Shown: positions 12,171 through 31,569 of the stretch, in pieces
How positions within the stretch are numbered: position 1 is the stretch's first letter
How the letters are laid out: each line of letters begins with the position of its first letter
From: Streptomyces griseorubiginosus
GTDB lineage: Bacteria; Actinomycetota; Actinomycetes; Streptomycetales; Streptomycetaceae
Assembly (NCBI RefSeq): GCF_001514195.1
Contig: NZ_KQ948736.1
Coordinates: 563,328 to 627,327, forward strand
Length of the DNA stretch: 64,000 nucleotides
Reading direction: 5' to 3'
Notes under the pieces: generated by a model
What the model saw: only the letters and a program-made list of their open reading frames with translations
Databases searched by the model: none
Told to the model about the DNA's origin: nothing
Position numbers and translations under genes: made by a program

Positions 12171-13997
<1,827 letters not shown>

Positions 13998-14004
13998 CGG
14001 TTCG

Positions 14005-16032
14005 TCAACCGATGGTCACGCGCAGGATCTTGTCCGATCCGTCGGCCGCACCCCCGTTGTTGTCGCAGTTGGTGGTCGACAGCCACAGCTGGTCGGCGCC
14101 CGGCACCTTGGTGACCGTACGCAGCCGGCCGTAGGTGCCCACGTAGTACGCGGTCGGTGTGCCGACGCTCTCGTTGTCGCCGTTGATCGGGATCCGCCAC
14201 AGCCGCTCGCCGCGCAGCGAGGCCATGTAGACGACGTTGCGCACGATCGCGATGCCGCTCGGGGACGCCTCCGAGACGTTCCAGGTTGCCTTGGGGTTGG
14301 TCATCCCGGAGACGCTGCACGTGCCCTCGCAGGTCGGCCAGCCGTAGTTGGCGCCGGGCTTGATCAGGTTCAGTTCGTCCTTGGAGCTGTTGCCGAACTC
14401 CGCTTCCCACAGGCGGCCGTTGCGGTCGAAGGCGAGGCCCTGCGGGTTGCGGTGCCCGAGGCTGTAGACGTAGGTGCCGAAGGGGTTGCCGGGTGCCGGA
14501 CTGCCGTCGGTGGTCATGCGCAGGATCTTGCCGTTGAGGGAGCTCTTGTCCTGCGCGAGGTCGGGTGTCTGGGCCTCGCCGGTGGAGACGTAGAGGTAGC
14601 CGTCGGGGCCGAAGGCGAGGCGTCCGCCGTTGTGGTAGCGGTTCTTCTTGATGCCCTGAAGGAGCACGGTGTAGCCGCTCAGCGTGGTCCCGTCGTACGT
14701 CATGCGGACCACTCGGTTGCCCTCGGACGCGGTGTGCATGAAGTAGACGCGGTGGTTGGTCTCCCAGTTCGGGTCGACGGCGACGCCCAGCAGTCCGCCC
14801 TCGCCGTTGGTGGTGACGGCGTTCGGGACGGTCCCGACCTGCGTCTTCGTGCCGTCCTTGGTGACCTTCCAGACCCGGAAGTCGTCCCGCTCGGTGACCA
14901 GCGCGCTCTTGCCGTCGGGCAGCCAGAACACGCCCCAGGGGATGGTCCAGCCGGAGGAGAGCGTGGCGACGGAGGAGGGGACGCCGCCGTCGGTGGCGCA
15001 GGCCTTGGTGGTGAAGGTGACCGTGTTGCTCGGCGGGCTGACGTTGCCGGCCGTGTCGCGGGCGACGACGTTCAGGCTGTACGGGCTGTCGCAGGCGAGC
15101 CCGGTCAGCGTGGTCGAGGTGCCGGTGACGGACGTGTAGACGGTGGTGTCGCTGCGTACGTCGTAGCCGGCGACCGCCCGATTGTCGGTGGAGGCACCCC
15201 AGTTCAGGGCGGCGCTGTTCGCCGTGACGTCCGCCGCGGACAGGGTGCCGGGCCGGGTCGGCGGGGTGGTGTCGGAGCTGGGCCTGGTGGTGCAGTCGAC
15301 GACGGGGCTGGCCGGGGAGGTGTTGCCGGCCGCGTCACGGGCGATGACCGTGAGGTTGTAGGTGGTGCCGGGGGTCAGGCCGGTGAGCGCCTTGCTGGTC
15401 GAACCGCCGGGCGCCTCACCGATCTTGTTGCCGTGCTCGTAGAGGTCGTACGCCATCACGCCCACGTTGTCGGTGGCGGCGCCCCAGGCCAGCGTGAGCC
15501 CGTCCTCGCCGATGTCGGAGCAACTGGGCTGCCCGGGACGGCTCGGGGCCTGGGAGTCGGTGGCCGCGTCGACGCGGACGCGGTCGAGGTTGGGGCCTCC
15601 GGCGGCGCTGGTGGCGGTCGCGCGGATCTTCGCGGAGCCCGCGGTGAGCGGGACGTCGATCGTCTTGGTGGCCCAGGTGTTCCAGTCGGCGGTGGCCGGG
15701 AACGAGACGGCCGAGGCCACGACCGTGCCGTCCACGGAGAGGTCCATGGGCCGGTCGGTCGCGGTCCCGTTGGCGTAGCGGAAGGTGACGGCCGTGGTGC
15801 CCGCGGAGGCGGGCCTGACGGTGAACTCCACATAGGAGCCCTTGACGTTGGTGTAGTCGACGAAGCCGGTGCCCGTGTAACCCGTGTGGTTGGTGGCCAC
15901 CGTGCCCTGCACGACGGTCGCGTCCTCCGCCTGGTAGTCGGTGGCCGCGAACGCGGTGGCCTGGCTCAGGCCCGCGAGGGGCAGCGCGAGGGCCGCGGCA
16001 AGGCCGTAGGGCAGAACTCTCTTGATTTTCAC
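14005..16032 (-). CDS. Secreted PQQ-type sugar dehydrogenase with CBM6 and two FN3 domains
   Basis: A 675-residue exported protein from GTG 16032, with GGAGGA six bases upstream. A signal peptide (KIKRVLPYGLAAALALPLAG, about residues 2-32) is followed by a CBM6/35-like beta-sandwich (TDYQAEDATVVQG onward, to about 150), two fibronectin type III repeats (about 160-340), and a six-bladed propeller of the soluble glucose/sorbosone dehydrogenase family (about 350-675). The propeller has the catalytic-histidine motif YHNGGRLAFGPDGYLYVSTG and GHRNPQGLAFD. The family oxidises aldoses with pyrroloquinoline quinone or related cofactors. It is the last gene of a five-gene operon of exported carbohydrate-active proteins, 14 bases after the GH27-GH18 gene. 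No pqq biosynthesis genes are in the window. Confidence 0.85.
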   Translation of the reverse strand: MKIKRVLPYGLAAALALPLAGLSQATAFAATDYQAEDATVVQGTVATNHTGYTGTGFVDYTNVKGSYVEFTVRPASAGTTAVTFRYANGTATDRPMDLSVDGTVVASAVSFPATADWNTWATKTIDVPLTAGSAKIRATATSAAGGPNLDRVRVDAATDSQAPSRPGQPSCSDIGEDGLTLAWGAATDNVGVMAYDLYEHGNKIGEAPGGSTSKALTGLTPGTTYNLTVIARDAAGNTSPASPVVDCTTRPSSDTTPPTRPGTLSAADVTANSAALNWGASTDNRAVAGYDVRSDTTVYTSVTGTSTTLTGLACDSPYSLNVVARDTAGNVSPPSNTVTFTTKACATDGGVPSSVATLSSGWTIPWGVFWLPDGKSALVTERDDFRVWKVTKDGTKTQVGTVPNAVTTNGEGGLLGVAVDPNWETNHRVYFMHTASEGNRVVRMTYDGTTLSGYTVLLQGIKKNRYHNGGRLAFGPDGYLYVSTGEAQTPDLAQDKSSLNGKILRMTTDGSPAPGNPFGTYVYSLGHRNPQGLAFDRNGRLWEAEFGNSSKDELNLIKPGANYGWPTCEGTCSVSGMTNPKATWNVSEASPSGIAIVRNVVYMASLRGERLWRIPINGDNESVGTPTAYYVGTYGRLRTVTKVPGADQLWLSTTNCDNNGGAADGSDKILRVTIG

Positions 16033-16046
16033 GGATGTTCCTCCCT

Positions 16047-18296
16047 TCAGCCCGTGTACTGGGTGAAGACCTTGAGGTAGTCGTACGGCTGCTGCGTCAC
16101 ACCGCTGCACGAGTCGCCGTCGGTGCCCGAGCCGCAGGGGCGGTCGCGGTTGACAGACCAGTAGGTGAGGCGTCCGATGTGGTGCTGCTGGGCGTAGGCG
16201 AGCATGGTCCTGAAGTCGGCGACGCGGACGCGCTCACCGGAGTCGTCGGTCTTGCCGTTCATCGAGGACAGCCCGATGTGCGCGTAGGCGGTGGCGTCGC
16301 TGTAGCCGTACGCCGACTTCACCCGTGCCTTGAGTCCTTCCATGGCCTGCGTGGTCAGGGTGCCCATGTTCGTGGTGCCGCCGCCGAAGTCGAACGGCAT
16401 GATGCACCACACGTCGTTCGCCAGGCCCGAGTTCGCCGCCCGCTTGATCATGTCGACGCCGGTGGAGTCGGGGCCGCTGGTCGTGGTGCCGAAGGTGATG
16501 ACCGTCTTCAGGCCCGGGTTGTTCGCCTTGACGGTCTTCAGCGCGTCGACGACCCGCTGCCGAACGGTCGCGTTGGACCACTCGGTGTTCTCGATGTCGA
16601 TGTCGAGGGCCTTCAGCCGGTAGGCGTTGATCACTTTCTGGTAGGCGCCGGCGAGCGCCGAGGCGCTGGAGCACTTCTCGCCGAGCTTGTTCCCGCTCCA
16701 GCCGCCGACGGAGACCATGACGTCACCGCCGGCGGATCTGATCGCGTCGATCCTCGACTGGTCGGTGCCGCCGGTCAGCGGGCGCGAGCCGTCCCACTTC
16801 GGGGTGCAGCCGCCGTCGGAGAGGATGAACGCGAGGGTGAACCACTTGACGCCGGTCGCCGACATCACCGAGGTGGCGTTCTGCGGGTTGCCCCAGCCGA
16901 GGTACTCGTAGGGGGCGACGGCCATGCCCGGCGAAGCGGCCGCGCTCTTCAGGGAGTTGACGGGCTTCACGCGGACCAGCCGGGTCTCGCCGGGCCGCAG
17001 CGTCGCGCTGTAGGAGTCGGCGATCACGCCCTTGTGGGAGCCGGACCACAGGTCGGTGACGTCTCCGGAGCCGGTGAAGCCGACCTGGGACCAGTCCACG
17101 GCGACCGTCGCGCTGCCGGACGTACCCGTGTTGAACAGGGCCACCACGTACTGGCCGTCGCTCTCCTTCTTGCTCCAGACCTGCTTGACCCCGCTGCTGA
17201 CGATCCGCTTGGCAGCGACGCCGTCCTGGTCGACCCCGATGAGGCGGTCGTTGGTCAGCATCGCCTTGTCGACCGGGTCGAGATCGGTCAGGTCGGTGCC
17301 GAGCAGCAGCGGCGAGGCGGCCATCGCCCAAAGCGTGAAGTGGGACCGGCGCTGGTCGGCGGTCAGGCCCACCTGGTCGCCGTTGCCGATCTCCAGCGAG
17401 TCCAGGTCGTTCCAGCCTCCGGGGCCCGCGTGCGGCTGCCAGGAGGCCGCCGAGTCGAAGCGTTTGGTGACGTGGGACCAGTCGGTGAGCGGATAGCCGC
17501 TGCCGTTGCTCCCCGGCCCGCAGTAGCACTCGACGTCACCCTGGGTGCGCCAACTGTTGGCCAGTTTCCGCCAGGTGGAGGCGTCGGCGATGGGGAGGTT
17601 GTTGGACAGCGCGAAGTTGATGGGCCGTCCGGTGGCACGCAGGGCCTTGTCCCACGCCTCGACGTCGGGAATGTCCTGGCTGCCCACTCCGTCGATCTTC
17701 AGGTAGTCGACTCCCCAGGAGGCGAACTGCCTCGCCCAGGAGTTCACGAACTCCTGGGCTCCCGGCTTGGAGTAGTCGATGTAGTACATGTTCTTGCAGT
17801 TGTAGTTCTTCTCCGTCTTCGAGGTGTCCGCGATGTCCTTGGCGTGGTACGAAGTCCCCTCGATCGGTGTGTTCTTGGTGACGGCGTTCTTGGCGATGCC
17901 GGGCGTCACGTAGAAGCCGAACTTCAGGCCCTTGGAGTGGACGTAGTCGGCCAGCGCCTTGATGCCGGACGGGAACTTGGCGGAGTCGACGGTCCAGCGG
18001 CCGTAGGAGTCGACGACGAAGCCGTTCGAGTCGCACTTCTGCCAGAAGTCGTCCAGGTTGATGTGGACGAAGCCGTGGTTCTTGAGACCGGTCGACACGA
18101 GCGCGTCGGCCTGCGCCTTGATCTTCGCCTCGGTCGGTGTGCGGCGCACGTAGCTCCAGCTGGACCAGCCCATGGCGGGCCGGACGGACTGGCCGTTGTC
18201 CGAGGCGGCGGCCGGTTGGGCGGTGCCCAGGAGCGGCACGGCGGCGGTGAGGAGCAGGCCCGCCACCGCGGCCGTGAGCGATCTGATCCGGAACAT
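16047..18296 (-). CDS. Secreted GH27-GH18 fusion glycosidase
   Basis: One uninterrupted 749-residue frame. Residues 1-31 are a signal peptide. Residues about 38-345 form a GH27 alpha-galactosidase/beta-L-arabinopyranosidase barrel, with Asp202 (VDYLKIDGVG) as nucleophile and Asp254 (WRTQGDVEC) as acid/base. A C-terminal beta-domain runs to about 445. After an Ala/Ser linker, residues about 458-749 are a GH18 chitinase-like barrel whose signature reads LDIDIEN, with Glu569 as proton donor. There is no carbohydrate-binding module. The ATG at 18296 overlaps the stop of the upstream GH29-like gene by one base (TGATG), and GGGGGA serves as its ribosome binding site, so translation is coupled. Joining an exo-galactosidase or arabinopyranosidase to an endo-acting GH18 barrel is unusual and hints at a composite glycan. 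Confidence 0.85.
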   Translation of the reverse strand: MFRIRSLTAAVAGLLLTAAVPLLGTAQPAAASDNGQSVRPAMGWSSWSYVRRTPTEAKIKAQADALVSTGLKNHGFVHINLDDFWQKCDSNGFVVDSYGRWTVDSAKFPSGIKALADYVHSKGLKFGFYVTPGIAKNAVTKNTPIEGTSYHAKDIADTSKTEKNYNCKNMYYIDYSKPGAQEFVNSWARQFASWGVDYLKIDGVGSQDIPDVEAWDKALRATGRPINFALSNNLPIADASTWRKLANSWRTQGDVECYCGPGSNGSGYPLTDWSHVTKRFDSAASWQPHAGPGGWNDLDSLEIGNGDQVGLTADQRRSHFTLWAMAASPLLLGTDLTDLDPVDKAMLTNDRLIGVDQDGVAAKRIVSSGVKQVWSKKESDGQYVVALFNTGTSGSATVAVDWSQVGFTGSGDVTDLWSGSHKGVIADSYSATLRPGETRLVRVKPVNSLKSAAASPGMAVAPYEYLGWGNPQNATSVMSATGVKWFTLAFILSDGGCTPKWDGSRPLTGGTDQSRIDAIRSAGGDVMVSVGGWSGNKLGEKCSSASALAGAYQKVINAYRLKALDIDIENTEWSNATVRQRVVDALKTVKANNPGLKTVITFGTTTSGPDSTGVDMIKRAANSGLANDVWCIMPFDFGGGTTNMGTLTTQAMEGLKARVKSAYGYSDATAYAHIGLSSMNGKTDDSGERVRVADFRTMLAYAQQHHIGRLTYWSVNRDRPCGSGTDGDSCSGVTQQPYDYLKVFTQYTG

Positions 18297-20266
18297 CACT
18301 GTCCCCCGTTCGCGGGTGTGGCGTACGACGTGCCGATCCACGCCTCGTCGATGCGCAGTCGCTTGTAGCGGGTGGTGTCGGTGGCGGCGGCCCAGGTGGA
18401 GGTGACCTCCAGGCGGACATGGCGGGCGTTGGCCGCGGTCAGGTCGATGCCCTGCACACCGCGGCGGCTCGGCAGCTGGCCGGTCTTCACTGGGCTGCCC
18501 CAGGTCGTGCCGTCGGCGCTCAGATACACCTTGTAGTCCTTGATCCGCGCCGACTGCTCGGTGTCCGAACGGACGTAGGCGACGGAGTCCTCGCGCTGGT
18601 TGAGCCCGAGGTACTGGACCTTCTTCGAGCTGCCGAGGTCGAAGGTGAGGTTGACGGGCAGGGTCTTGTCGTTGTCCCAGTAGGTGCGGTAGTCGCCGTC
18701 ACCGGCGGCCGAACCCGCGTGACCGCTCGCCGAGGCGCTCGCGCTCACCTTGACGCCGGTGAGGATGCCCTGGCGGCCGGCCGTGACGACCTTGAACACC
18801 GTGTCGTACGGGTCCCAGTTCCCGAGCCCGGAGAGAGTGAGCACGCCGCCCGACTGCGACCACGAAACCGCCGCGCCCGTACGGAGGTTGGTGGCCGAGG
18901 CGACGCGGTAGCCGTTGTCGCGGATGCGCAGCGTGCTGGTGCTGGGCGGGGTCAGGACGTGGATGTACTGGCGGTCGGGGTCGCTCCTGCTGATCGTGGT
19001 CACGCCGTGGGCGCCGTCGTTCCAGAAGCCCGGCTTGAGCCCGCCGTACAGGTAGCCGCCGCCCTCCGTACCGTGCAGCGACTCCCAGATGGGGTTGAGG
19101 TAGGAGTTCGCGAAGTTGTTGAACTCGGCCTGTTTGGCGGGGAACTTGCCGTTGACCTGGGCGGTCTCGGCCATCAGTGCCTTCACGGACGATCCGGCGT
19201 TGGTGACGAGGCGGCCGAGGGTGAGCATCTTGTCGACCGACGGATCGGTGCCGCCGTACCACCACGAGCCGGTGGAGGGCAGTTTGAAGTCGGCCTCGGT
19301 GAGGCGGGGTTGGGCCGTGTAGACGGCCTGCGGGTAGTCGTACGCCGGCGTCATCCCCGTCTTCTGCTCATTGCTGATCATGTCCATGATCGGCGTGTCC
19401 TCGTTGTTGTTGCTGAGCGTGTAGTCCGGGCGCTTCTCGTAGATCTGCCGGTAGAGGTCGCGGCTCTCCCAGTAGGCGTTGTCGTTGTCGATCCAGAAGC
19501 CGCCGAGGTCGGGGTAACGGTCCATGACCTCGAAGAAGTTGTCGTAACTGAACTGCCCGAAGCCGTCGTTGGTGGTCAGGTCGACGTTCTTGCCCTTGTA
19601 GGCGGAGTAGGCGGCCGAGTCGAGCCACTCGTGGCCGCCCTCGTCGTGCCACTGGGGGTCGTTGGTCATGTAGAGGATGACCTTCAGCCCCTTGGCCTTG
19701 GCGGCCCTGACCAGCTCACCCAGGAAGTCGCGTTGGGTGGAGCAGGAGCCGGGGATCTTCGACGGCCAGGTGCGGGCGTAACCGAGGCGGCTGTGGAAGG
19801 AGGCGAGGACGAGGTACTGCGTGTGCAGCTTCTGGGCCTCCTTCACCCAGTAGTCGGCGTTCCAGCCGCCGTTCGTGACGTCGTTCTCCCAGGCCGTGCA
19901 ACTGGTGTGGGCCGGTGCGGTGCGCAGGCCCCAGTGCAGGAAGAGACCGCCGACGGAGTCGCGCAGGAAGTCCTGGCGGGGGTTCTCGAGGTCGAGCGGC
20001 TGCACCGCCGTACGGCCGCAGTCCTGACCTCCCGAGACCCGCAGGGCGCCGCCAGAGGTGTGGTGACTGCCCGTCAGGCAGTCGCCCGTCGTGTCCTGGA
20101 GGCCCACGTCGAACGGGGAGCCGCCGGGCGGGAAGCGGACGTCGAAGACGGCGGCGACCTGGGACGGCTCCTGCAGGGCGGCCGGGTGGCTGAGTCCGAG
20201 GACGACGGCGACGACGAAGAGGACGATCGCCGCCGCTCGGGAATGTCTGGCTGTGGGGGGTTTCAA
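18296..20266 (-). CDS. Exported GH29-like glycosidase (alpha-L-fucosidase fold) with CBM32
   Basis: 656 residues from TTG 20266, with GAGGAG eight bases upstream. An N-terminal hydrophobic signal (AAAIVLFVVAVVLGLSH) is followed by a barrel that begins GLFLHWGLRTAP, the counterpart of the GH29 FGLFIHWG motif. GGFWIDNDNAYWE occupies the place of the nucleophile strand. A beta-sandwich follows, and then a discoidin-type F5/8C (CBM32) domain at about residues 515-645 (KVQYLGLNQREDSVAYVRSD and RHVRLEVTSTW). GH29 enzymes remove alpha-L-fucose with retention. The substitutions in the first motif are large, so the exact family is less sure than the fold. It is the third gene of the operon, 12 bases after the lyase-like gene. 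Confidence 0.72.
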   Translation of the reverse strand: MKPPTARHSRAAAIVLFVVAVVLGLSHPAALQEPSQVAAVFDVRFPPGGSPFDVGLQDTTGDCLTGSHHTSGGALRVSGGQDCGRTAVQPLDLENPRQDFLRDSVGGLFLHWGLRTAPAHTSCTAWENDVTNGGWNADYWVKEAQKLHTQYLVLASFHSRLGYARTWPSKIPGSCSTQRDFLGELVRAAKAKGLKVILYMTNDPQWHDEGGHEWLDSAAYSAYKGKNVDLTTNDGFGQFSYDNFFEVMDRYPDLGGFWIDNDNAYWESRDLYRQIYEKRPDYTLSNNNEDTPIMDMISNEQKTGMTPAYDYPQAVYTAQPRLTEADFKLPSTGSWWYGGTDPSVDKMLTLGRLVTNAGSSVKALMAETAQVNGKFPAKQAEFNNFANSYLNPIWESLHGTEGGGYLYGGLKPGFWNDGAHGVTTISRSDPDRQYIHVLTPPSTSTLRIRDNGYRVASATNLRTGAAVSWSQSGGVLTLSGLGNWDPYDTVFKVVTAGRQGILTGVKVSASASASGHAGSAAGDGDYRTYWDNDKTLPVNLTFDLGSSKKVQYLGLNQREDSVAYVRSDTEQSARIKDYKVYLSADGTTWGSPVKTGQLPSRRGVQGIDLTAANARHVRLEVTSTWAAATDTTRYKRLRIDEAWIGTSYATPANGGQ

Positions 20267-20278
20267 GGTGACGGCTCC

Positions 20279-21070
20279 TCAGACCAGTTGGTAGCCGCGG
20301 AGATTGCTGAGCAGCAAGTAGGTGTTCTGGAGGGAGCCGGAGGTGTCGCCGAGGGAGCGGTAGATGCCCCACTTCGGGCGGACCCGGTCGGCCAGGAAGG
20401 TGTCGACGCCGGTCTTCGACGCGTCGACGACGGCCGAGCCGGCGGACTTGAGGATCCAGCGGACCGAACCCGCCGAGCCGTCGCCGACCTTGATCTGGAA
20501 GTCGACGTCGGTCCACTTGTCGTGCAGCGGGTCCAGGTCGGTGCGGCCGACGAGGATGTCGTCGATGGCGAGCTTCAGCTCGATGGTCTGCCTGCCGTTC
20601 ACGCGGCGCAGGGACTGCACGACGATCGGCGAGGTGCCGCTGCCCGGCTGCTTCATCTGCATGATGTGGGTGAAGGTGGTGGTCGCCTTCAGGGAGCTCG
20701 GGATGTACATCGAGTAGGTGACCCGCCAGGTCTGGCCCTTCGTCCACTTCAGGTAGTTGCCGCCGCTGCCGTTGCGCAGCCCGGTGACCTCCTGGCGCTG
20801 GCGGTCGGTCGAGGTGTCGCGGTCGACGGTGTGCATGTCGAAGCGCCAGTTGTTGCCGGTGGCGTAGATGTGCGGCTGCCCGGCGGAGTGCGAGTCGGCG
20901 CGGTCGTCCTCGACCGTCTCGAAGGCGCCGAGGCCGTCGGCGCTCGCGGAGGGGGCCCACTTCTGCTGCCAGGAGGCGGCGTGGGCGGCGGTCGCCGTCG
21001 GCAGACCGGCCGCGGCCGCCGTGGCACCGCCGAGCGCGGCCCCCAGCAACACTCTTCTGGATGTGCTCAT
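20279..21070 (-). CDS. Tat-exported lyase-fold protein (heparin-lyase/PL-like)
   Basis: A 263-residue protein from ATG 21070, with GAGGTG ten bases upstream. The signal peptide MSTSRRVLLGAALGGATAAA has a twin-arginine motif. The mature part looks like the concanavalin-like jelly roll of the PF14099 polysaccharide-lyase group: YLKWTKGQTWRVTYSMYIPS, TTTFTHIMQMKQPGSG and KWTDVDFQIKVG. A GTG four codons upstream (21082) would overlap the GH105 gene; I prefer the ATG because the Tat motif follows it directly. In an operon with GH105, which needs a lyase-generated unsaturated uronide, a uronate-cleaving role fits well, but that is inferred from context. The substrate is unknown. Confidence 0.6.
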   Translation of the reverse strand: MSTSRRVLLGAALGGATAAAAGLPTATAAHAASWQQKWAPSASADGLGAFETVEDDRADSHSAGQPHIYATGNNWRFDMHTVDRDTSTDRQRQEVTGLRNGSGGNYLKWTKGQTWRVTYSMYIPSSLKATTTFTHIMQMKQPGSGTSPIVVQSLRRVNGRQTIELKLAIDDILVGRTDLDPLHDKWTDVDFQIKVGDGSAGSVRWILKSAGSAVVDASKTGVDTFLADRVRPKWGIYRSLGDTSGSLQNTYLLLSNLRGYQLV

Positions 21071-21074
21071 GACA

Positions 21075-22253
21075 TCAATCACCTCGCAGTTGTTCGTTCA
21101 TGATCAGGAAGGCGCCCAGGCCGTGGAAGTCGTTGGTGGCCCGGTCGCGAGCGATGTAGTACGCGTAGTCGCCGACGTTGGTGCCGATGGAGATGTCGGC
21201 GAGGTTCGTGCGCCCGTCGGAGCCGACCGAGAGCCGGGCGAGCACGCCCTGGTAGCCGCGGTGCGCGACGGCCTTGAAACGCTGGTCCAGATACCCCTGC
21301 TGAGCACCGCGCGAGAGGGCGTACGTGAACATGCTGGAGCAGGACGTCTCGGTCCAGTTGTCGCCGCGGGCACCCTTGTCGATCACCTGGAACCAGCGGC
21401 CGGTCGCCGGGTCCTGGTACTTCTCCAGACCCGCCGCCAGCCTGCGGAGGATGCCGAGCAGCTGGGCCCGGCGCGGGTGGTTCTGCGGGATGCCGTCCAG
21501 CACGTCGACGATCGCCATGGAGTACCAGCCGACCGCACGGCACCAGTGCTCGGGGGCCAGTCCGGTGCGCGGGTCGGCCCAGCCGGCGGTCTTCGACTCG
21601 TCGTAGGCGTGCTTGAGCAGTCCGTTCGCGACCTGGAGGTGGCTTCCGTAGACGGCGAGCTGCTTCGCGGCCTCGTCGTCGGTGGACGAGCTGTCGCCGA
21701 ACTCCTCTCCGTACTCGACGAGGAACGGGTTCACCATGTAGACGCCGTCCGCCCAGAGCTGGTGGGCGCGGCTCGCGGTGTCGGCGTGCCAGAAGCCGCC
21801 GTCGCTCGTGCGGGGGTAGCCGGCCAGGCGGTCGACGATCTTCTTCGCCGCCCTGCGGTAGCGGTCCTGGCCGGTCTCGTGGTGCAGGATCACCAGGAGC
21901 CGGCCGGCCTGCATGCTGTCGAGGCTGTTGAAGGACTGGCCGATCGAGCCGTCGCTCTTCACGAAGCGGTCGACGTAGTCCTTGATGTAGGTCAGGTAAC
22001 GGGTGTCATGGGTGCGCTCGTACGCGAGGTACTGGCCGTAGAGGTAGAGGCCGACCGGGTAGGACCAGCCGCCGATGCTGCTCGGCGTGTAGCGGGCCAT
22101 GGTCGACTCGACCATCGCCACGGACCAGTCGCGGTCCGGGGACGGGCCGGTCGGGGAGCCGGCGGTCGGGGGTGCGGCGGCCGGCACGGTGACCAGGGTC
22201 GCGGCGGCGAGTGCAAGGGTCGTCAGAGCCGTGCGCAGACGACGGCGTCTCAT
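21075..22253 (-). CDS. Exported GH105 unsaturated rhamnogalacturonyl hydrolase
   Basis: 392 residues from ATG 22253 behind GGGAGGA. A signal peptide (residues 1-26) precedes an alpha6/alpha6 barrel of the GH88/GH105 type: the catalytic-aspartate motif QLWADGVYMVNPFL (Asp169), GGFWHADTASRAHQ, and LAPEHWCRAVGWYSMAI. GH105 enzymes hydrate the double bond of the 4,5-unsaturated uronic acid left by polysaccharide lyases, releasing it from rhamnose or another sugar. Most GH105 proteins are cytoplasmic; this one carries a signal peptide. It is first in the leftward operon and overlaps or abuts the lyase-like gene, with the stop four bases before the next ATG. Confidence 0.85.
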   Translation of the reverse strand: MRRRRLRTALTTLALAAATLVTVPAAAPPTAGSPTGPSPDRDWSVAMVESTMARYTPSSIGGWSYPVGLYLYGQYLAYERTHDTRYLTYIKDYVDRFVKSDGSIGQSFNSLDSMQAGRLLVILHHETGQDRYRRAAKKIVDRLAGYPRTSDGGFWHADTASRAHQLWADGVYMVNPFLVEYGEEFGDSSSTDDEAAKQLAVYGSHLQVANGLLKHAYDESKTAGWADPRTGLAPEHWCRAVGWYSMAIVDVLDGIPQNHPRRAQLLGILRRLAAGLEKYQDPATGRWFQVIDKGARGDNWTETSCSSMFTYALSRGAQQGYLDQRFKAVAHRGYQGVLARLSVGSDGRTNLADISIGTNVGDYAYYIARDRATNDFHGLGAFLIMNEQLRGD

Positions 22254-22323: not shown

Positions 22324-22441
22324 GAACAGAGTTCAGGATTCCGCCCGATGGCGCGATCCAGAGTCGCGGCAGGACCGTCGGTGGTCAATGGTCTGTACCG
22401 AAGACGTCGGATGCATTTCCGGCCAATTTCAGCCATGACTC

Positions 22442-22459: not shown

Positions 22460-22551
22460 TCGGACGGATTCTCCGGTCAGGAATGCATCACGGCTCGTGA
22501 TCGTTGACGATGGGAGTACCACCGTCCGACAACCGTAAGGATCAAGAGCTC

Positions 22552-23388
22552 GTGAGCAGCAAGGTCCCCCCGATCATCCTCAACAACGGCGTCGAGATGC
22601 CCCAGTTGGGCTTCGGCGTGTGGCAGGTGCCGGACGACGAGGCGGAGCGCGCGGTCAGCACGGCGTTGGAGGCCGGGTACCGCAGCATCGACACAGCGGC
22701 GATCTACGGCAATGAAGAGGGCACCGGCAAGGCCATCGCGGCTTCCGGGGTCCCCCGCGAGGACATCTTCGTCACCACCAAGCTCTGGAACAGCGACCAG
22801 GGCTACGACGCGACCCTGCGCGCCTTCGACACCTCGCTGGCCAAGCTCGGCCTGGACTACGTGGACCTGTACCTGATCCACTGGCCGACGCCCGCCCGCG
22901 ACCTGTACGTCGACAGCTACAAGGCGTTCGAGAAGCTGCACGCCGATGGCCGGATCAAGGCGATCGGTGTCTCCAACTTCGAGCCCGAGCACCTGCGGCG
23001 GCTGATCGACGAGACGTCCGTCGTGCCGGCCGTCGACCAGATCGAGCTGCACCCGCACCTCCAGCAGCGGGCCGCCCGCGAGTTCCACGCGGAGCAGGGC
23101 ATCGCCACCGAGGCCTGGTCGCCGCTCGGCTCCGGCAAGGGACTCCTGGAGGTCCCGGCGGTCGTGGCCATCGCCCAGAAGCACGACCGCACCCCGGCCC
23201 AGGTCGTGCTGCGCTGGCACCTCCAGCTCGGCAATGTCGTGATCCCGAAGTCCGTGACGCCGTCGCGGATCAAGGAGAACATCGAGGTCTTCGACTTCAG
23301 CCTGGACACCGAGGACCTGGCGGCGATCAGCGCGCTCAACGAGGACCGGCGCCTCGGCCCGGACCCGTCGACGTTCAACGCCGCCTGA
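22552..23388 (+). CDS. Aldo/keto reductase (2,5-diketo-D-gluconate reductase type)
   Basis: An NADPH-dependent carbonyl reductase of 278 residues with the whole AKR tetrad: Asp and Tyr in SIDTAAIYGNEEG, Lys in VTTKLWN, and His in YLIHWPTP. The coenzyme-binding block VVIPKSVTPSRIKENIEVFDFSL is at the C-terminus. I place the start at GTG 22552, with AAGGA ten bases upstream; an ATG at 22504 would add 16 atypical residues. A TetR-like palindrome precedes the gene. Substrate specificity cannot be told; the family reduces sugar-derived and xenobiotic aldehydes and ketones. Confidence 0.92.
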   Translation: MSSKVPPIILNNGVEMPQLGFGVWQVPDDEAERAVSTALEAGYRSIDTAAIYGNEEGTGKAIAASGVPREDIFVTTKLWNSDQGYDATLRAFDTSLAKLGLDYVDLYLIHWPTPARDLYVDSYKAFEKLHADGRIKAIGVSNFEPEHLRRLIDETSVVPAVDQIELHPHLQQRAAREFHAEQGIATEAWSPLGSGKGLLEVPAVVAIAQKHDRTPAQVVLRWHLQLGNVVIPKSVTPSRIKENIEVFDFSLDTEDLAAISALNEDRRLGPDPSTFNAA

Positions 23389-26284: not shown

Positions 26285-28006
26285 CTAGAGCGCGGGGTAC
26301 GCGTTCTTCATGAGCTCCTGGAACTGCGCCGAGAACCAGTGCCCCGACAGCGGAGCGTTCGGCAGCGCACCGGACATGTTGTTGTTGTTCCGCGGGTTGC
26401 CGGTGTACGTCGGGTCGCACATCCGGTCGAAGCCCTTGCCCTCGTCGTTCGGAACGGCGCTGCTCGCCCCGTCGGACTCACCCGGGGGCTTGATCCACAC
26501 GTAGGCGTCGATCCCGGCCGCCGGGCTGGCCTGCGGACGCTCGCCGAGGCCGGCGCCGGACTGGTTGCACCAGTTGCCGGTGTTGAGGCGCCGGTCGATG
26601 CGGCCGCCGTCGACGTAGGTGTTCACATCGGTCTTGGCCCCGGGACCGGTCGGCCGGGCGCTGCCGCCCCAGCCGTTGCGGGAGGTGTCGATGAGCATGC
26701 CGACGCCCGACGGGAAGCCCTGGCTCACGGCCTCCTGACGGAAGGCCTGGGCGTAGGAGAGCTCGTCGACGTAACGGTTCCAGTCGACCCACTTCGACTC
26801 GCGCACGGACTTGCCGTTCACGGAGTCGTTGATGGTGTAGTACGGCTCCTTCAGCGCGCTGTAGTTGGCGGTGTTGGTGATGAAGCCGTGGACGTCGTTC
26901 ACCGTGGCGCCCTCGGCGGTCGCAGCCTGCTTGATCGTCTGGACGGTCGCCGAGAAGTTGTCGTCCCAGCCGAGCCAGCCGTGGTGCCCGGCGTCCACGT
27001 AGTTGTAGACGTTGGGGACGTCACCGAGCTTGTTCAGCGCGTAGCCGACACCCTTGATGTAGTTGCCGTTGGACTTCATCGTGTCGCAGTTGGGGGTGGC
27101 GGTGTTCCGGGGCGACACGTTGGTGACGAGGTTCGGCAGGGAGTCGAGCTCGACCGTGGTGACGATCCGCAGCGAGGCGTACTTGGAGTCGGCGAGGATC
27201 GCGGCGATCGGGTCGATGTACTGCGTCTTGTACTTGTCGATGTCCGTCGGACCGAACTCACCGTTGGAGGCGAGCGCGGCACAGTCACGGCCCGGCAGGT
27301 CGTAGATCACCAGCTGTACGGCGAGTTCGCCGCTGCCCTTCTGCTTGAGGGCCTCGTCGAGGTGCGCCCGCAGGCCCATCTTCCCGCCCGCGCCGTTGAT
27401 CGCGGCGACCCGGTCCAGCCACACGCCGGTGGGCTGGTTGGCGATGCGGCTGCCGCCCGGCTCGGCGGCGGCGTTGGCGGACCACTCGGGGTTCACGTAC
27501 ACCTTGGCGCCCGCGTAGGGGTTGTCGACCCGGGTGCCGGTGCCGGGGGTGCCCGGATCGGTCGGGCCCGGGTCGGTGGGGCCGCCGCCGTCGACGTTGC
27601 AGGTCACCCCGTCGAGCGTGAAGGTGGTCGGCACCGCGTTGGTGCCGCTGTAGGTGCCCTGGAAGCCGAAGCTGACCGAAGCGCCGGTGGCCAGCGAGCC
27701 GTTGTAGCTCTCGTTGTTCGCGGTGACGGCCGTACCGCTCTGACTGATCTTGGAGTTCCAGAAGTTGGAGACCTTCTGGTTTCCGGCGTACGACCACTTC
27801 AGCGACCAACTCGACTTGGCCGCGCTGTTGTTGGTGATCGTGACGGCGGTGGTGAAGCCGGTGTCCCACTGGTTCTGCACCTTGTAGTCCACGGTGCAGG
27901 GGACGGCGGCGATGCCCACGTCCCCGGGGACCACGGCGAGCGCGGTCCCGGAGGCCCCTGCGACGAGCGCAAGGGCAGCGAGGAGCGCTGTTCTCGTACG
28001 ACTCAT
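26285..28006 (-). CDS. Secreted GH6 cellulase (cellobiohydrolase type) with CBM2
   Basis: 573 residues from ATG 28006 with AAGGA eleven bases upstream. A signal peptide (1-33) is followed by CBM2 (about 35-140, VPCTVDYKVQNQWDTGFTTA onward), a Pro/Thr/Gly linker (142-160), and a GH6 inverting barrel (about 165-573). The catalytic-acid region YDLPGRDCAALASNGEF and the substrate-tunnel motifs AGHHGWLGWDDN and IDAYVWIKPPGESDG are intact, as in exo-acting GH6 enzymes. It faces away from GH48 and GH74 genes, as in other streptomycete cellulase clusters. The nearest CebR-like box is 444 bases upstream, beyond a small open frame. Confidence 0.93.
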   Translation of the reverse strand: MSRTRTALLAALALVAGASGTALAVVPGDVGIAAVPCTVDYKVQNQWDTGFTTAVTITNNSAAKSSWSLKWSYAGNQKVSNFWNSKISQSGTAVTANNESYNGSLATGASVSFGFQGTYSGTNAVPTTFTLDGVTCNVDGGGPTDPGPTDPGTPGTGTRVDNPYAGAKVYVNPEWSANAAAEPGGSRIANQPTGVWLDRVAAINGAGGKMGLRAHLDEALKQKGSGELAVQLVIYDLPGRDCAALASNGEFGPTDIDKYKTQYIDPIAAILADSKYASLRIVTTVELDSLPNLVTNVSPRNTATPNCDTMKSNGNYIKGVGYALNKLGDVPNVYNYVDAGHHGWLGWDDNFSATVQTIKQAATAEGATVNDVHGFITNTANYSALKEPYYTINDSVNGKSVRESKWVDWNRYVDELSYAQAFRQEAVSQGFPSGVGMLIDTSRNGWGGSARPTGPGAKTDVNTYVDGGRIDRRLNTGNWCNQSGAGLGERPQASPAAGIDAYVWIKPPGESDGASSAVPNDEGKGFDRMCDPTYTGNPRNNNNMSGALPNAPLSGHWFSAQFQELMKNAYPAL

Positions 28007-28108
28007 GAGTGCGGGTTTCCTTATCGATCGCGGGTGTTGTCCGTCGAGAGGGTGCCGTGCACGGGGCACGGGTGTGCGAGGGAACGGGTCGGTGCGGGCG
28101 CTGTCCGT

Positions 28109-28463: not shown

Positions 28464-28592
28464 CTGGTGTCAAGGAAGGTAGCGCCAAGTGACGGCAAAG
28501 AACAGAGGAGTCACCGGCCTTTTGCCCGGCCTGTTCGTCGAATCTTTTCGACTGTTCACAAGCCTTGACCCCTTGAAGACCCATCCTCACTA

Positions 28593-28606
28593 TGGGAGCG
28601 CTCCCA
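28593..28606. promoter_or_regulatory. Perfect CebR operator upstream of GH48
   Basis: TGGGAGCGCTCCCA is the exact 14-bp palindrome bound by CebR, the LacI-family cello-oligosaccharide repressor of streptomycetes. It sits 48 bases before the GH48 start. CebR would release it when cellobiose or cellotriose is present. Confidence 0.88.
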
Positions 28607-28653
28607 CTGGTTCAAGCCTTGACTTCTCCGAGCCGCACAAGGAGGAACCAGCA

Positions 28654-31569
28654 ATGCCCCCCACCAGGAGACGCCGGACCGCCCGGCGATTGTGGACCGC
28701 TGTCGTGGCGGCCATGGCACTGCCGTTCGCGATGCTGAGTGCGGCTTCAACTCCCGCACAGGCAGCCGCCGTTCAGTGCAGTGTCGACTACAAGACCAAT
28801 GACTGGGGCTCCGGTTTCACCGCGGACCTGACGATCACCAACCGCGGCACGGACGCCATCAACGGCTGGACCCTGACGTACGGCTACGCCGGCAACCAGA
28901 AGCTGAGCAACGGCTGGAACGGCGTCTGGTCCCAGTCCGGCCAGAACATCAGCGTCAAGGACGCCGGCTACAACGCCACCATCGCCGCGGGCGCCGCCGT
29001 CTCCACCGGGGCGCAGTTCACCTACAGCGGCACCAACACCTCGCCCACCAACTTCGCGGTCAACGGCACCAGTTGCACCGGAGCCCACCAGCCGCCGATC
29101 ACCGTGCTGACCAGCCCGGCCGCGGGAGCGGTCTACACCCAGGGCACCGCGGTCCCGCTCGCCGCGACGGCCGCCGCCGCGGACAACGCGACGATCAGCA
29201 AGGTGGAGTTCTACGACAACACCACGCTGCTGGGCACGGACACGACATCGCCGTACTCGCTCTCGGCCTCCAGCTTGACCGTGGGCAGTCATTCGCTGCT
29301 CGCGAAGGCGTACGACAGCCTGGGCGCGTCCGCCGAGTCGACGCCGGTCGGGATCACCGTCGCCTCGGGCCCCGCGATCGTCGCCTCGACCACCCAACTG
29401 GCCGTCCAGCAGGGCAAGACGGGCGCCTACACCGTGAAGCTCTCGACGCAGCCCTCGGCCAACGTGACAGTCACGACGGCCCGTACGAGCGGCAACTCCG
29501 GCCTCTCGGTCACGGGTGGCGCCTCGCTCACCTTCACGCCGTCGAACTGGAACACCGCGCAGACGGTGACCATCACCGGCAACGCCTCCGGCACCGGCGC
29601 GGCCACCTTCGAGTCCACGGCCACCGGCCACGCCAAGGCCTCGGTGAACGTCACCCAGATCGCGGCGACGGGCACGTACAACGCCCGCTTCCTGGATCTG
29701 TACGGGAAGATCACCAACCCGGCGAACGGCTACTTCTCCCCCGAGGGCATTCCCTACCACTCGGTGGAGACGCTGATCGTCGAGGCGCCGGACCACGGTC
29801 ACGAGACCACCTCGGAGGCGTACAGCTACCTCCTGTGGCTCCAGGCCATGTACGGCAAGGTGACCGGCGACTGGTCCAAGTTCAACGGCGCCTGGGAGAT
29901 CATGGAGAAGTACATGATCCCCACCCACGCCGACCAGCCGACCAACTCCTTCTACAACGCCTCCAAGCCGGCCACCTACGCACCCGAGCTGGACACCCCC
30001 AACGAGTACCCGGCCAAGCTGGACAGCGGTGTGTCGGTGGGGTCCGATCCGATCGCCGGTGAGCTGAAGTCGGCGTACGGCACGGACGACATCTACGGCA
30101 TGCACTGGCTCCAGGACGTCGACAACGTCTACGGCTACGGCAACTCGCCCGGCAAGTGCGAGGCCGGACCTGCCGACACCGGACCGTCGTACATCAACAC
30201 CTTCCAGCGCGGTGCGCAGGAGTCGGTGTGGGAGACGGTGCCGCAGCCGACCTGCGACGCCTTCAAGTACGGTGGCAAGAACGGGTACTTGGACCTGTTC
30301 ACCGGTGACTCCTCCTACGCCAAGCAGTGGAAGTTCACCAACGCCCCGGACGCCGACGCACGGGCCGTGCAGGCCGCGTACTGGGCGGACATCTGGGCCA
30401 GGCAGCAGGGCAAGGGCTCCGACGTCTCCGCGACCGTGGGCAAGGCCGCGAAGATGGGCGACTACCTGCGCTACGCCATGTACGACAAGTACTTCAAGAA
30501 GATCGGCAACTGTGTCGGGCCGTCCACCTGCGCGGCCGGCAGCGGCAAGAACTCCTCGATGTACCTGCTGTCCTGGTACTACGCCTGGGGCGGCGCGACC
30601 GACACCTCGGCAGGGTGGGCCTGGCGCATCGGCTCCAGCCACGCGCACAGCGGCTACCAGAACCCGATGGCCGCGTACGCGCTGAGCTCCTACGCCGACC
30701 TGAAGCCCAAGTCGGCCACCGGCGCGGCGGACTGGAACACCTCGCTGACCCGGCAGTTGGAGTTCTACCGGTGGCTCCAGTCCGACGAGGGCGCCATCGC
30801 GGGCGGTGCGACCAACAGCTGGGCGGGCCGCTACGCCAGTCCCCCGGCCGGCAAGTCCACCTTCTACGGCATGTACTACGACGAGCAGCCCGTCTACCAC
30901 GACCCGCCGTCCAACCAGTGGTTCGGGTTCCAGGCCTGGTCGATGGAGCGCGTCGCCGAGTACTACCAGCAGACGGGCAATGCGCAGGCCAAGGCGGTCC
31001 TCGACAAGTGGGTCAAGTGGGCGCTGTCCAAGACCACCATCAACCCGGACGGCACCTACCGGATCCCCTCGACCCTCCAGTGGTCGGGCCAGCCCGACAC
31101 CTGGAACGCGTCAAGTCCCGGCGCCAACAGCGGACTTCACGTCACCGTCGCCGACTACACCAACGACGTCGGTGTGGCCGCCGCCTACGCCAAGACGCTG
31201 AGCTACTACGCCGCCAAGTCCGGTGACACCGCGGCGAAGACCACGGCCAAGGCGCTCCTGGACGGCATGTGGAACAACTACCAGGACAGCCTCGGCGTCG
31301 CGGTGCCGGAGGACCGCGCGGACTACAACCGGTTCGACGACTCGGTGTACGTGCCGAGCGGGTGGACCGGGACCATGCCGAACGGGGACGCGATCAACTC
31401 GTCGTCCACGTTCGAGTCCATCCGGTCCTTCTACAAGAACGACCCGGCCTGGTCGAAGATCCAGGCGTATCTCGCGGGCGGCGCGGTGCCGTCGTTCACG
31501 TACCACCGGTTCTGGGCCCAGGCGGACATTGCCTTGGCCATGGGTTCGTACGCGGAGCTTCTCGAATAG
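28654..31569 (+). CDS. Secreted GH48 cellobiohydrolase with CBM2
   Basis: A processive reducing-end cellobiohydrolase of 971 residues. The ATG at 28654 is preceded by AAGGAGGAA. Order: signal peptide (1-37), CBM2 (about 40-140), an Ig-like/Big domain (about 145-240, [20 protein letters not shown]), a second Ig-like beta-domain (about 243-340), then the GH48 alpha/alpha barrel to the C-terminus. The catalytic-acid region [20 protein letters not shown] and the base-side motif [12 protein letters not shown] are present. The frame upstream of the ATG contains the operator and is not translated. With GH6 and GH74 this forms a complete extracellular set for cellulose and xyloglucan. Confidence 0.95.

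Follow-up and report, generated by a model that had tools for sequence, protein, structure and literature searches.

A conserved actinobacterial operon of probably secreted enzymes, possibly directed at glucuronan in chitin-rich walls

Which polymer would call, at one and the same place, for a polysaccharide lyase, an unsaturated uronyl hydrolase, a fucosidase-like protein, a galactosidase-like domain fused to a chitinase-like one, and a sugar dehydrogenase of the pyrroloquinoline quinone (PQQ) family? The question is raised by a stretch of 64,000 nucleotides from Streptomyces griseorubiginosus (contig NZ_KQ948736.1, positions 563,328 to 627,327; this whole stretch is the window in what follows), where five genes of a 9.87 Mb genome follow one another on the minus strand, from position 22253 down to 14005. 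With a probability that we place at roughly 0.55, we propose that this operon serves the secreted degradation of a beta-linked glucuronan in walls rich in chitin or chitosan, probably the walls and slime of Mucoromycota, under a control of the chitinase type. We favour this reading because of the structural model of the lyase, the GH18 domain, the GH8 enzymes and CBM5/12 modules of related loci, a binding module of the glucosaminidase type (CBM35), and a promoter element of the kind found ahead of chitinase genes. Protein families, gene order, the element, the predicted lyase fold, the type of binding module and the GH8 and pqq genes of related loci were computed; substrate, order of action, export, DasR as regulator and a single transcript are inferred.

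The operon and its relatives

The features that matter here are the following.

Gene 1: 21075..22253, minus strand, GH105 (YteR-like) unsaturated uronyl hydrolase with a signal-like N-terminus
Gene 2: 20279..21070, minus strand, twin-arginine polysaccharide lyase, predicted jelly roll, glucuronan-lyase-like
Gene 3: 18296..20266, minus strand, GH29-like domain with CBM32, TTG start, remnant of a GH28-GH29-CBM32 protein
Gene 4: 16047..18296, minus strand, GH27-GH18 fusion
Gene 5: 14005..16032, minus strand, CBM35-FN3-FN3-glucose/sorbosone-type sugar dehydrogenase (PQQ family, AA12-like)
Conserved site GGTNNNRACCATTGACC: 22383..22399, minus strand, 129 bases ahead of gene 1, chitinase-promoter-like
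GH28 scar of 15 bases: 20127..20141, minus strand, from a DNA alignment with a related locus (L031)
Flanking aldo/keto reductase gene: 22504..23388, plus strand, divergent, outside the operon (PF00248, 1.8e-57)
Flanking acyl-CoA synthetase-like gene: 12171..13997, plus strand, convergent, named by eye

From gene 1 to gene 5 the intergenic gaps measure 4, 12, -1 and 14 bases, as had been reported in an earlier note, made by a model from the sequence. That note described a five-gene operon, which is real and co-directional, within an interval (16032-22253) that leaves out the fifth gene and has to be extended to 14005-22253. It gave export signals to all five proteins: signal-like N-terminal stretches can indeed be read by eye in each of them, of the twin-arginine type in the lyase. 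It saw no transporter, and a Pfam scan finds neither transporter nor regulator among the five genes. Its family labels (GH105, lyase, GH29-like with CBM32, GH27-GH18, and FN3-FN3 sugar dehydrogenase at the end of the operon, with a GSDH profile match of 2.1e-70) stand, except for a 'CBM6', the nearest solved relative of which is a CBM35 (2vzp). It finally suggested looking for the same gene order elsewhere, the absence of which would have spoken against it; the order is in fact kept, in all 38 comparable loci. The conserved enzyme set would probably be co-transcribed as one unit, and its products exported. Scans for sigma-70 promoters and terminators gave nothing exceeding shuffled sequences.

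Related loci were collected by their lyase, which is why this gene is their constant member. Of 246 genomes sampled in the genus, 51 have a lyase match (E<=1e-10), among them the own genome and distant groups. To the window we added 55 fetched stretches and, out of 491 confirmed loci, the best 80, which are the named ones; once 12 duplicates had been merged, 122 unique loci with the lyase were left. The counts given below refer to 114 unique loci, window included, with a lyase identity of at least 60%; outside this set are eight loci below 60% and two with broken lyase matches (L084, L085). All these counts are lower bounds, owing to contig ends, and are uncorrected for species relatedness. 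Among the named loci are some from Streptomyces, Kitasatospora, Actinomadura, Nonomuraea, Catellatospora and Planotetraspora.

The modules recur as follows among the 114 loci: GH105 in 52, GH28 in 41, GH29 in 48, GH27 in 46, GH18 in 35, GH8 in 8, CBM35 in 58, the dehydrogenase in 58 and pqqC in 28. The gene order is not due to chance, since all 38 loci that combine GH105, GH29, GH27 and dehydrogenase share that of the window. Boundaries recur too: the aldo/keto reductase gene lies on the opposite strand in 84 loci, the acyl-CoA synthetase-like gene likewise in 79, and both are present in 77. In four loci (L051, L057, L160 and L164) most enzymes carry a CBM35. The added GH8 is a CBM35-GH8 fusion in all four cases scanned, and the one compared has a glucanase (5xd0, 1.5e-96) and a chitosanase (1v5c, 1.3e-68) as best solved relatives. 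Among the papers listed by a literature search, judged on titles and the beginnings of abstracts, none describes a system of this kind.

Further along the window, near the operon, lie two cellulase genes, GH6 with CBM2 (26285-28069, minus strand) and GH48 with CBM2 (28489-31569, plus strand), and a gene for a BNR/sortilin-repeat protein with CBM2 (31839-34496, plus strand).

The five proteins and the quinone cofactor

The lyase is the core of the proposal. Its Pfam match, PF14099 (Polysacc_lyase; 3.9e-7), scores 30.6 bits, barely above the cut-off of 29.9, and its relatives straddle this limit (34.1 bits for L195, 22.2 for L067); the lyases of L075 and L081 have no PF14099 match at E 0.001. 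All 114 distinct copies with more than 55% identity carry the motif FTHI.Q.K. An AlphaFold2 model built from 40 sequences reached a predicted local distance difference test score (pLDDT) of 79 and a predicted template modelling score (pTM) of 0.79. When the top 1000 Foldseek hits of this model were realigned with VIA-align, first came 2zzj, the endo-beta-1,4-glucuronan lyase of Trichoderma reesei, which we take to represent family PL20 and which had tentatively been named as the expected match ahead of the structure search (Z 19.6, root-mean-square deviation 2.6 A, 198 aligned positions, model residues 35-262). The next rows were a GH131 protein (Z 17.2, 3.1 A, 198 positions) and heparin lyase I (Z 17.1, 3.5 A, 204 positions). 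With this lead of 2.4 Z the modelled protein has the fold of 2zzj.

The lyase also occurs in other settings. It is fused to FN3, CBM32-type and chitin-binding CBM5/12 domains in L075 (6958-8664), and to a CBM35 in L067 (6839-8191). A second group (L076, L077, L078), with 42-44% identity, sits in a rearranged cluster with other orientations, with GH29, dehydrogenase, GH105 and pqqC nearby and a distant GH27 in two of the three. A third group (L079-L083; 34-36% identity) is found in five other places without accessory enzymes; its scanned member, L081, has no Pfam family at E 0.001.

Gene 1 matches the GH88/GH105 profile PF07470 at 6.6e-89 (298.8 bits, cut-off 26.6) and aligns over residues 46-388 with YteR (1nc5, 5.8e-80), which we take to act on rhamnogalacturonan products. 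It retains an Asp at the position that reads Asn in entry 2gh4, and the motif LW.DG is found in 53 of the 54 distinct GH105 copies of the loci; profile and catalytic Asp together place it in GH105.

Gene 3 has lost a domain. Its GH29 match (Alpha_L_fucos, 5.9e-12, 46.1 bits) is distant, well enough above the cut-off of 25.2 to belong to the family, and is accompanied by an F5/8C domain (CBM32). A loose motif, F[WL].D, the Asp of which is presumably the nucleophile, is present in 51 of 51 distinct copies; the AlphaFold2 model of the protein is poor (pLDDT 51.6). A full-length relative, P0006 (1080 residues), carries a GH28 domain (6e-21) ahead of GH29 and CBM32, and also matches Pect-lyase_RHGA_epim. 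Compared with L031, the gene of the window lacks 419 codons, in two in-frame gaps of 99 and 1158 bases, between which the scar at 20127-20141 is left. GH29 without GH28 is found in 11 of the 114 loci, window included. GH28 was apparently lost on more than one occasion, with signal peptide and GH29 kept in frame, because among ten GH28-less proteins compared the junctions differ between the window, L052 and the L033/L088 group; two of the ten, L071 and L160, are not interpretable.

Gene 4 opens with a GH27 domain (Melibiase_2, 1.4e-41, 143.1 bits for a cut-off of 23; motif YLK.D in 43 of 44 distinct copies), the comparison of which with solved structures fits an alpha-galactosidase and a beta-L-arabinopyranosidase alike. 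For its C-terminal part, Pfam gives no GH18 match at E<=0.01. This part matches the exochitinase 9buf (6.8e-50) and the chitinase 2dsk (1e-24), and with the motif D.D.E in 35 of 35 distinct copies it belongs to GH18.

Gene 5, finally, ends the operon with a dehydrogenase domain (GSDH, 238.1 bits, cut-off 25; solved match 3das, 2.1e-94) that stands next to fn3. Two motifs that we take to have a role in PQQ binding, GHRN[PV]QG (60 of 60 distinct copies) and HNGGRL (57 of 60), mark it as a PQQ sugar dehydrogenase; it misses the cut-off of the NCBIfam model TIGR03606 (non_repeat_PQQ), with 141.4 against 434.55 bits. CBM6, Pfam's best proposal for its binding module, was set aside: among solved structures, the module is nearest to the CBM35 of an exo-beta-D-glucosaminidase (2vzp, presumably CsxA), with a gap-free alignment at 1.3e-42. 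Next come 2w47/2w1w, CBM35s from a rhamnogalacturonan acetyl esterase (PMC9843283). The same source counts 2vzp among uronate binders, which it characterizes by a set of Trp, Asn, Asn and His (PMC9843283). We assigned four simple motifs of our own to the regions described there; of the 95 distinct CBM35 copies in the loci, 50 have all four and 45 lack one or more. By its sequence, the module of gene 5 comes closest to a uronate-type CBM35.

The dehydrogenase would need its quinone, and this is where the loci diverge. Among the 103 loci left when 11 cut by contig ends are dropped, pqqC is present at 24 of 52 with dehydrogenase and at 3 of 51 without, relatedness of species again uncorrected. 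The own genome (G000) has no pqqC and no pqqB match in family-model searches, and its best pqqE match scores 58 bits for a cut-off of 381; the same searches are positive in two control genomes (G193 and G212). Nor is this a solitary case. Of 23 genomes with a dehydrogenase at the fetched locus (tallied from 51 searched, three of the 43%-identity lyase group included), ten have no pqqC match anywhere, and where pqqC is absent locally both PQQ-site-like motifs are kept in 29 of 32 dehydrogenase copies. Since PQQ synthesis genes were not found in its genome, the simplest reading is that the enzyme of S. griseorubiginosus uses scavenged PQQ; it is also possible that it is idle.

The promoter-region element

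Of the 114 loci, 84 have a single copy each of a 16-base element, GGTNNNRACCATTGAC; without exception it lies on the operon strand, never on the opposite one (2.25 Mb in all). The site of the window, which ends in the -35-like hexamer TTGACC, is the sole exact match within its 64 kb, with none in 100 shuffles; a longer form of the element is absent from 5600 base-shuffled upstream regions. In 74 loci it stands 20-700 bases ahead of the first called gene, whatever this gene may be: the lyase in 33, GH105 in 23 and pqqC in 18. The ten remaining copies are in pqq loci, nine of them 1.16-1.44 kb before pqqC and one at L041, which has a partial pqqC match. Where pqq genes are present, the element precedes them, so that they appear to form the beginning of the same operon. 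An earlier count had left 41 copies outside its 320-base intervals; the 84 were placed using unique loci and operon coordinates.

DasR regulates the use of N-acetylglucosamine (GlcNAc) and chitin. The element resembles a site bound by it ahead of chiD, aatggtccgaaccatt, and is close to those of chiA, ggtggtccagaccaat, and chiJ, cttggtccagacctct, as published (PMC4398421). It emerged from lining up the hits of a DasR consensus scan. Because the loci in which it was discovered are also those in which it was counted, independent support has to come from strand bias, position and a search of 17 genomes of the genus, of which six have a lyase locus and eleven no lyase match. These hold 24 exact copies, against none for a reversed-pattern control: six at the lyase locus, one per genome, 14 before chitinase genes (13 GH18, 1 GH19) and four others. 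Of the latter, L203 and L204 have no gene called, L207 has none within 450 bases on the same strand and L208 precedes an open reading frame. At L207 the exact copy is followed by a second dre-like stretch. With one mismatch, three sites are found in the own genome: that of this operon, one ahead of a GH18 chitinase gene and one (L169, C7:387764) just before the gene of a 326-residue FN3-repeat protein.

A plain scan with the DasR consensus gave a mean best score of 10.35/16 in loci that begin with the lyase, compared with 9.56 for shuffled sequences. DasR would be the candidate regulator of the operon.

The target polymer and known systems

How would these pieces work together? Transcription would start from the promoter with the chitinase-type element, and induction alongside the chitin/GlcNAc system may be expected because chitinase genes have this element in common with the operon. 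The lyase would act on glucuronan by beta-elimination, and GH105 would take off the 4,5-unsaturated uronate ends thus produced. GH29-CBM32 and GH27 would remove fucose and galactose branches, while GH18 would act on the chitin partner. Anchored by its CBM35 on uronate-rich material, the dehydrogenase would then oxidize a freed sugar with PQQ, L-fucose or galactose being candidates. Fucose released by GH29 is one because a fungal AA12 dehydrogenase oxidizes L-fucose (PMC4332668).

A polymer of this kind has been described. Slime of Mucorales is essentially a beta-1,4-linked glucuronic acid (GlcA) chain with fucose, mannose and galactose, and the glycuronan of M. mucedo, with fucose, mannose, galactose and GlcA in the ratio 5:1:1:6, is non-covalently bound to a glucosamine polymer (PMC6433966). 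The contents of the loci suit such a wall, because its composition needs a glucuronan lyase, a uronyl hydrolase, a fucosidase, a galactosidase and enzymes for chitin or chitosan. We would go one step further, on a tentative footing and at somewhat less than even odds: a bacterial glucuronan lyase of an uncharacterized family may be the core of a dedicated actinobacterial system against the glucuronan-chitin/chitosan of Mucoromycota, with DasR-like control, CBM35s common to its enzymes, its own pqq genes in many species and scavenged PQQ elsewhere.

A number of observations pull the other way. Sequence and profile searches of the PDB found no solved relative of the lyase up to E 1; its identity with 2zzj is 12%, and Foldseek itself placed alginate lyases of family PL7 on top (7oof, 1.1e-8) and 2zzj only 20th. 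Fold alone can mislead on substrate: for the similarly folded Cip1 of Trichoderma, an activity as glucuronan lyase could not be convincingly demonstrated (PMC3764139), and a common fold, here a modelled one, is no proof of what the lyase acts upon. Mucoran, another fraction of the Mucorales wall, in which alpha-GlcA alternates with mannose (PMC6433966; see also PMC10481521), should not yield to a beta-1,4-glucuronan lyase. No GH8, other chitosanase or mannosidase was found by Pfam among the five genes of the window. As for control, 30 of the 114 loci lack the element, some of them cut by contig ends; in most relatives the copy comes nearer to the DasR consensus than in the window (GGTACAGACC); the plain consensus scan of loci that begin with GH105 averaged 9.81/16, with 9.55 after shuffling; and with two mismatches the own genome holds 23 sites, near the 14 of the reversed control.

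The earlier note had seen a branched, uronate-containing glycan behind this operon, and so do we. The candidates it listed, gum, rhamnogalacturonan side chain or exopolysaccharide, were weighed together with pectin and fit less well than glucuronan in a chitin- or chitosan-type wall. Were pectic or rhamnogalacturonan side chains the target, the lyase would cut a plant uronate polymer, GH105 would remove unsaturated galacturonate, the GH28 of relatives would cut galacturonan, and GH29 and GH27 would take off fucose and galactose. YteR as the closest relative of gene 1, the GH28 and Pect-lyase_RHGA_epim matches of full-length gene 3 and the 2w47/2w1w modules (PMC9843283) all fit this as well. 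We nevertheless consider it unlikely: the modelled lyase is a jelly roll nearest to a glucuronan lyase, not a beta-helix, there is no evident role for GH18, GH8, CBM5/12 or the chitinase-type element, and the five genes of the window comprise no rhamnosidase, arabinanase or pectin esterase. About as unlikely is some other acidic glycan, be it an arabinogalactan-protein or gum, a uronate exopolysaccharide from algae or bacteria, or a polymer of the glycosaminoglycan kind. The alginate lyases on top of the Foldseek search and the nearness of heparin lyase I would agree with it, and branched gums would be fitting substrates for GH27 and GH29, but the chitin-type enzymes and the chitinase-type element of the loci argue against it. 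That there is no single polymer at all, the secreted enzymes being useful each on its own and their genes loosely gathered between two boundary genes, is very unlikely: the lyase without any other module in 40 of the 114 loci (both boundary genes present in 27), the variable modules and the loss of GH28 at different junctions speak for it, against the strict order in 38 of 38 loci, the CBM35 across most enzymes of four of them and the single site ahead of the first called gene, whichever it is, pqqC included.

If degradation of glucuronan in a chitin- or chitosan-rich wall is the right answer, its consequences reach beyond this locus. The exact structure of the Mucorales wall is reported not to be known yet (PMC6433966); with a matched set of enzymes its acidic polymer could be dissected, and the recycling of these fungi by soil bacteria would be better understood. 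Since chitinase genes have the element too, the hypothesis on the substrate lends itself to a direct test. The pqq genes that front a glycan-degradation operon, and genomes in which the quinone enzyme persists in their absence, may point to an exchange of PQQ in soil.

It remains to set the operon beside what is known. It shares with polysaccharide utilisation loci the co-location of enzymes for one glycan, and differs from them in that its five genes include neither transporter nor regulator. With the DasR-regulon chitinase genes of Streptomyces, such as chiD, it has in common the element ahead of the gene; here, by contrast, the element fronts a multi-enzyme uronate-glycan operon and not a lone chitinase. 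Gene 1 resembles YteR-type GH105 (1nc5, 2gh4) over the aligned residues, down to the Asp mutated in 2gh4, whereas it has a signal-like N-terminus and neighbours that do not make a pectin set. The likeness of gene 2 to the Trichoderma glucuronan lyase is that of the jelly-roll fold; unlike 2zzj, it is bacterial, has a Tat-type (twin-arginine) signal, belongs to an operon and has no sequence-level match to it at 12% identity. The binding module of gene 5 has its nearest solved relative in an exo-beta-D-glucosaminidase (2vzp), but is joined here to a PQQ-family dehydrogenase via two FN3 domains. And this dehydrogenase, akin to glucose/sorbosone PQQ enzymes (3das, the fungal AA12 CcPDH) in GSDH profile and PQQ-site-like motifs, departs from them in its CBM35-FN3-FN3 architecture and in a genome that holds no pqqB, pqqC or pqqE above cut-off.

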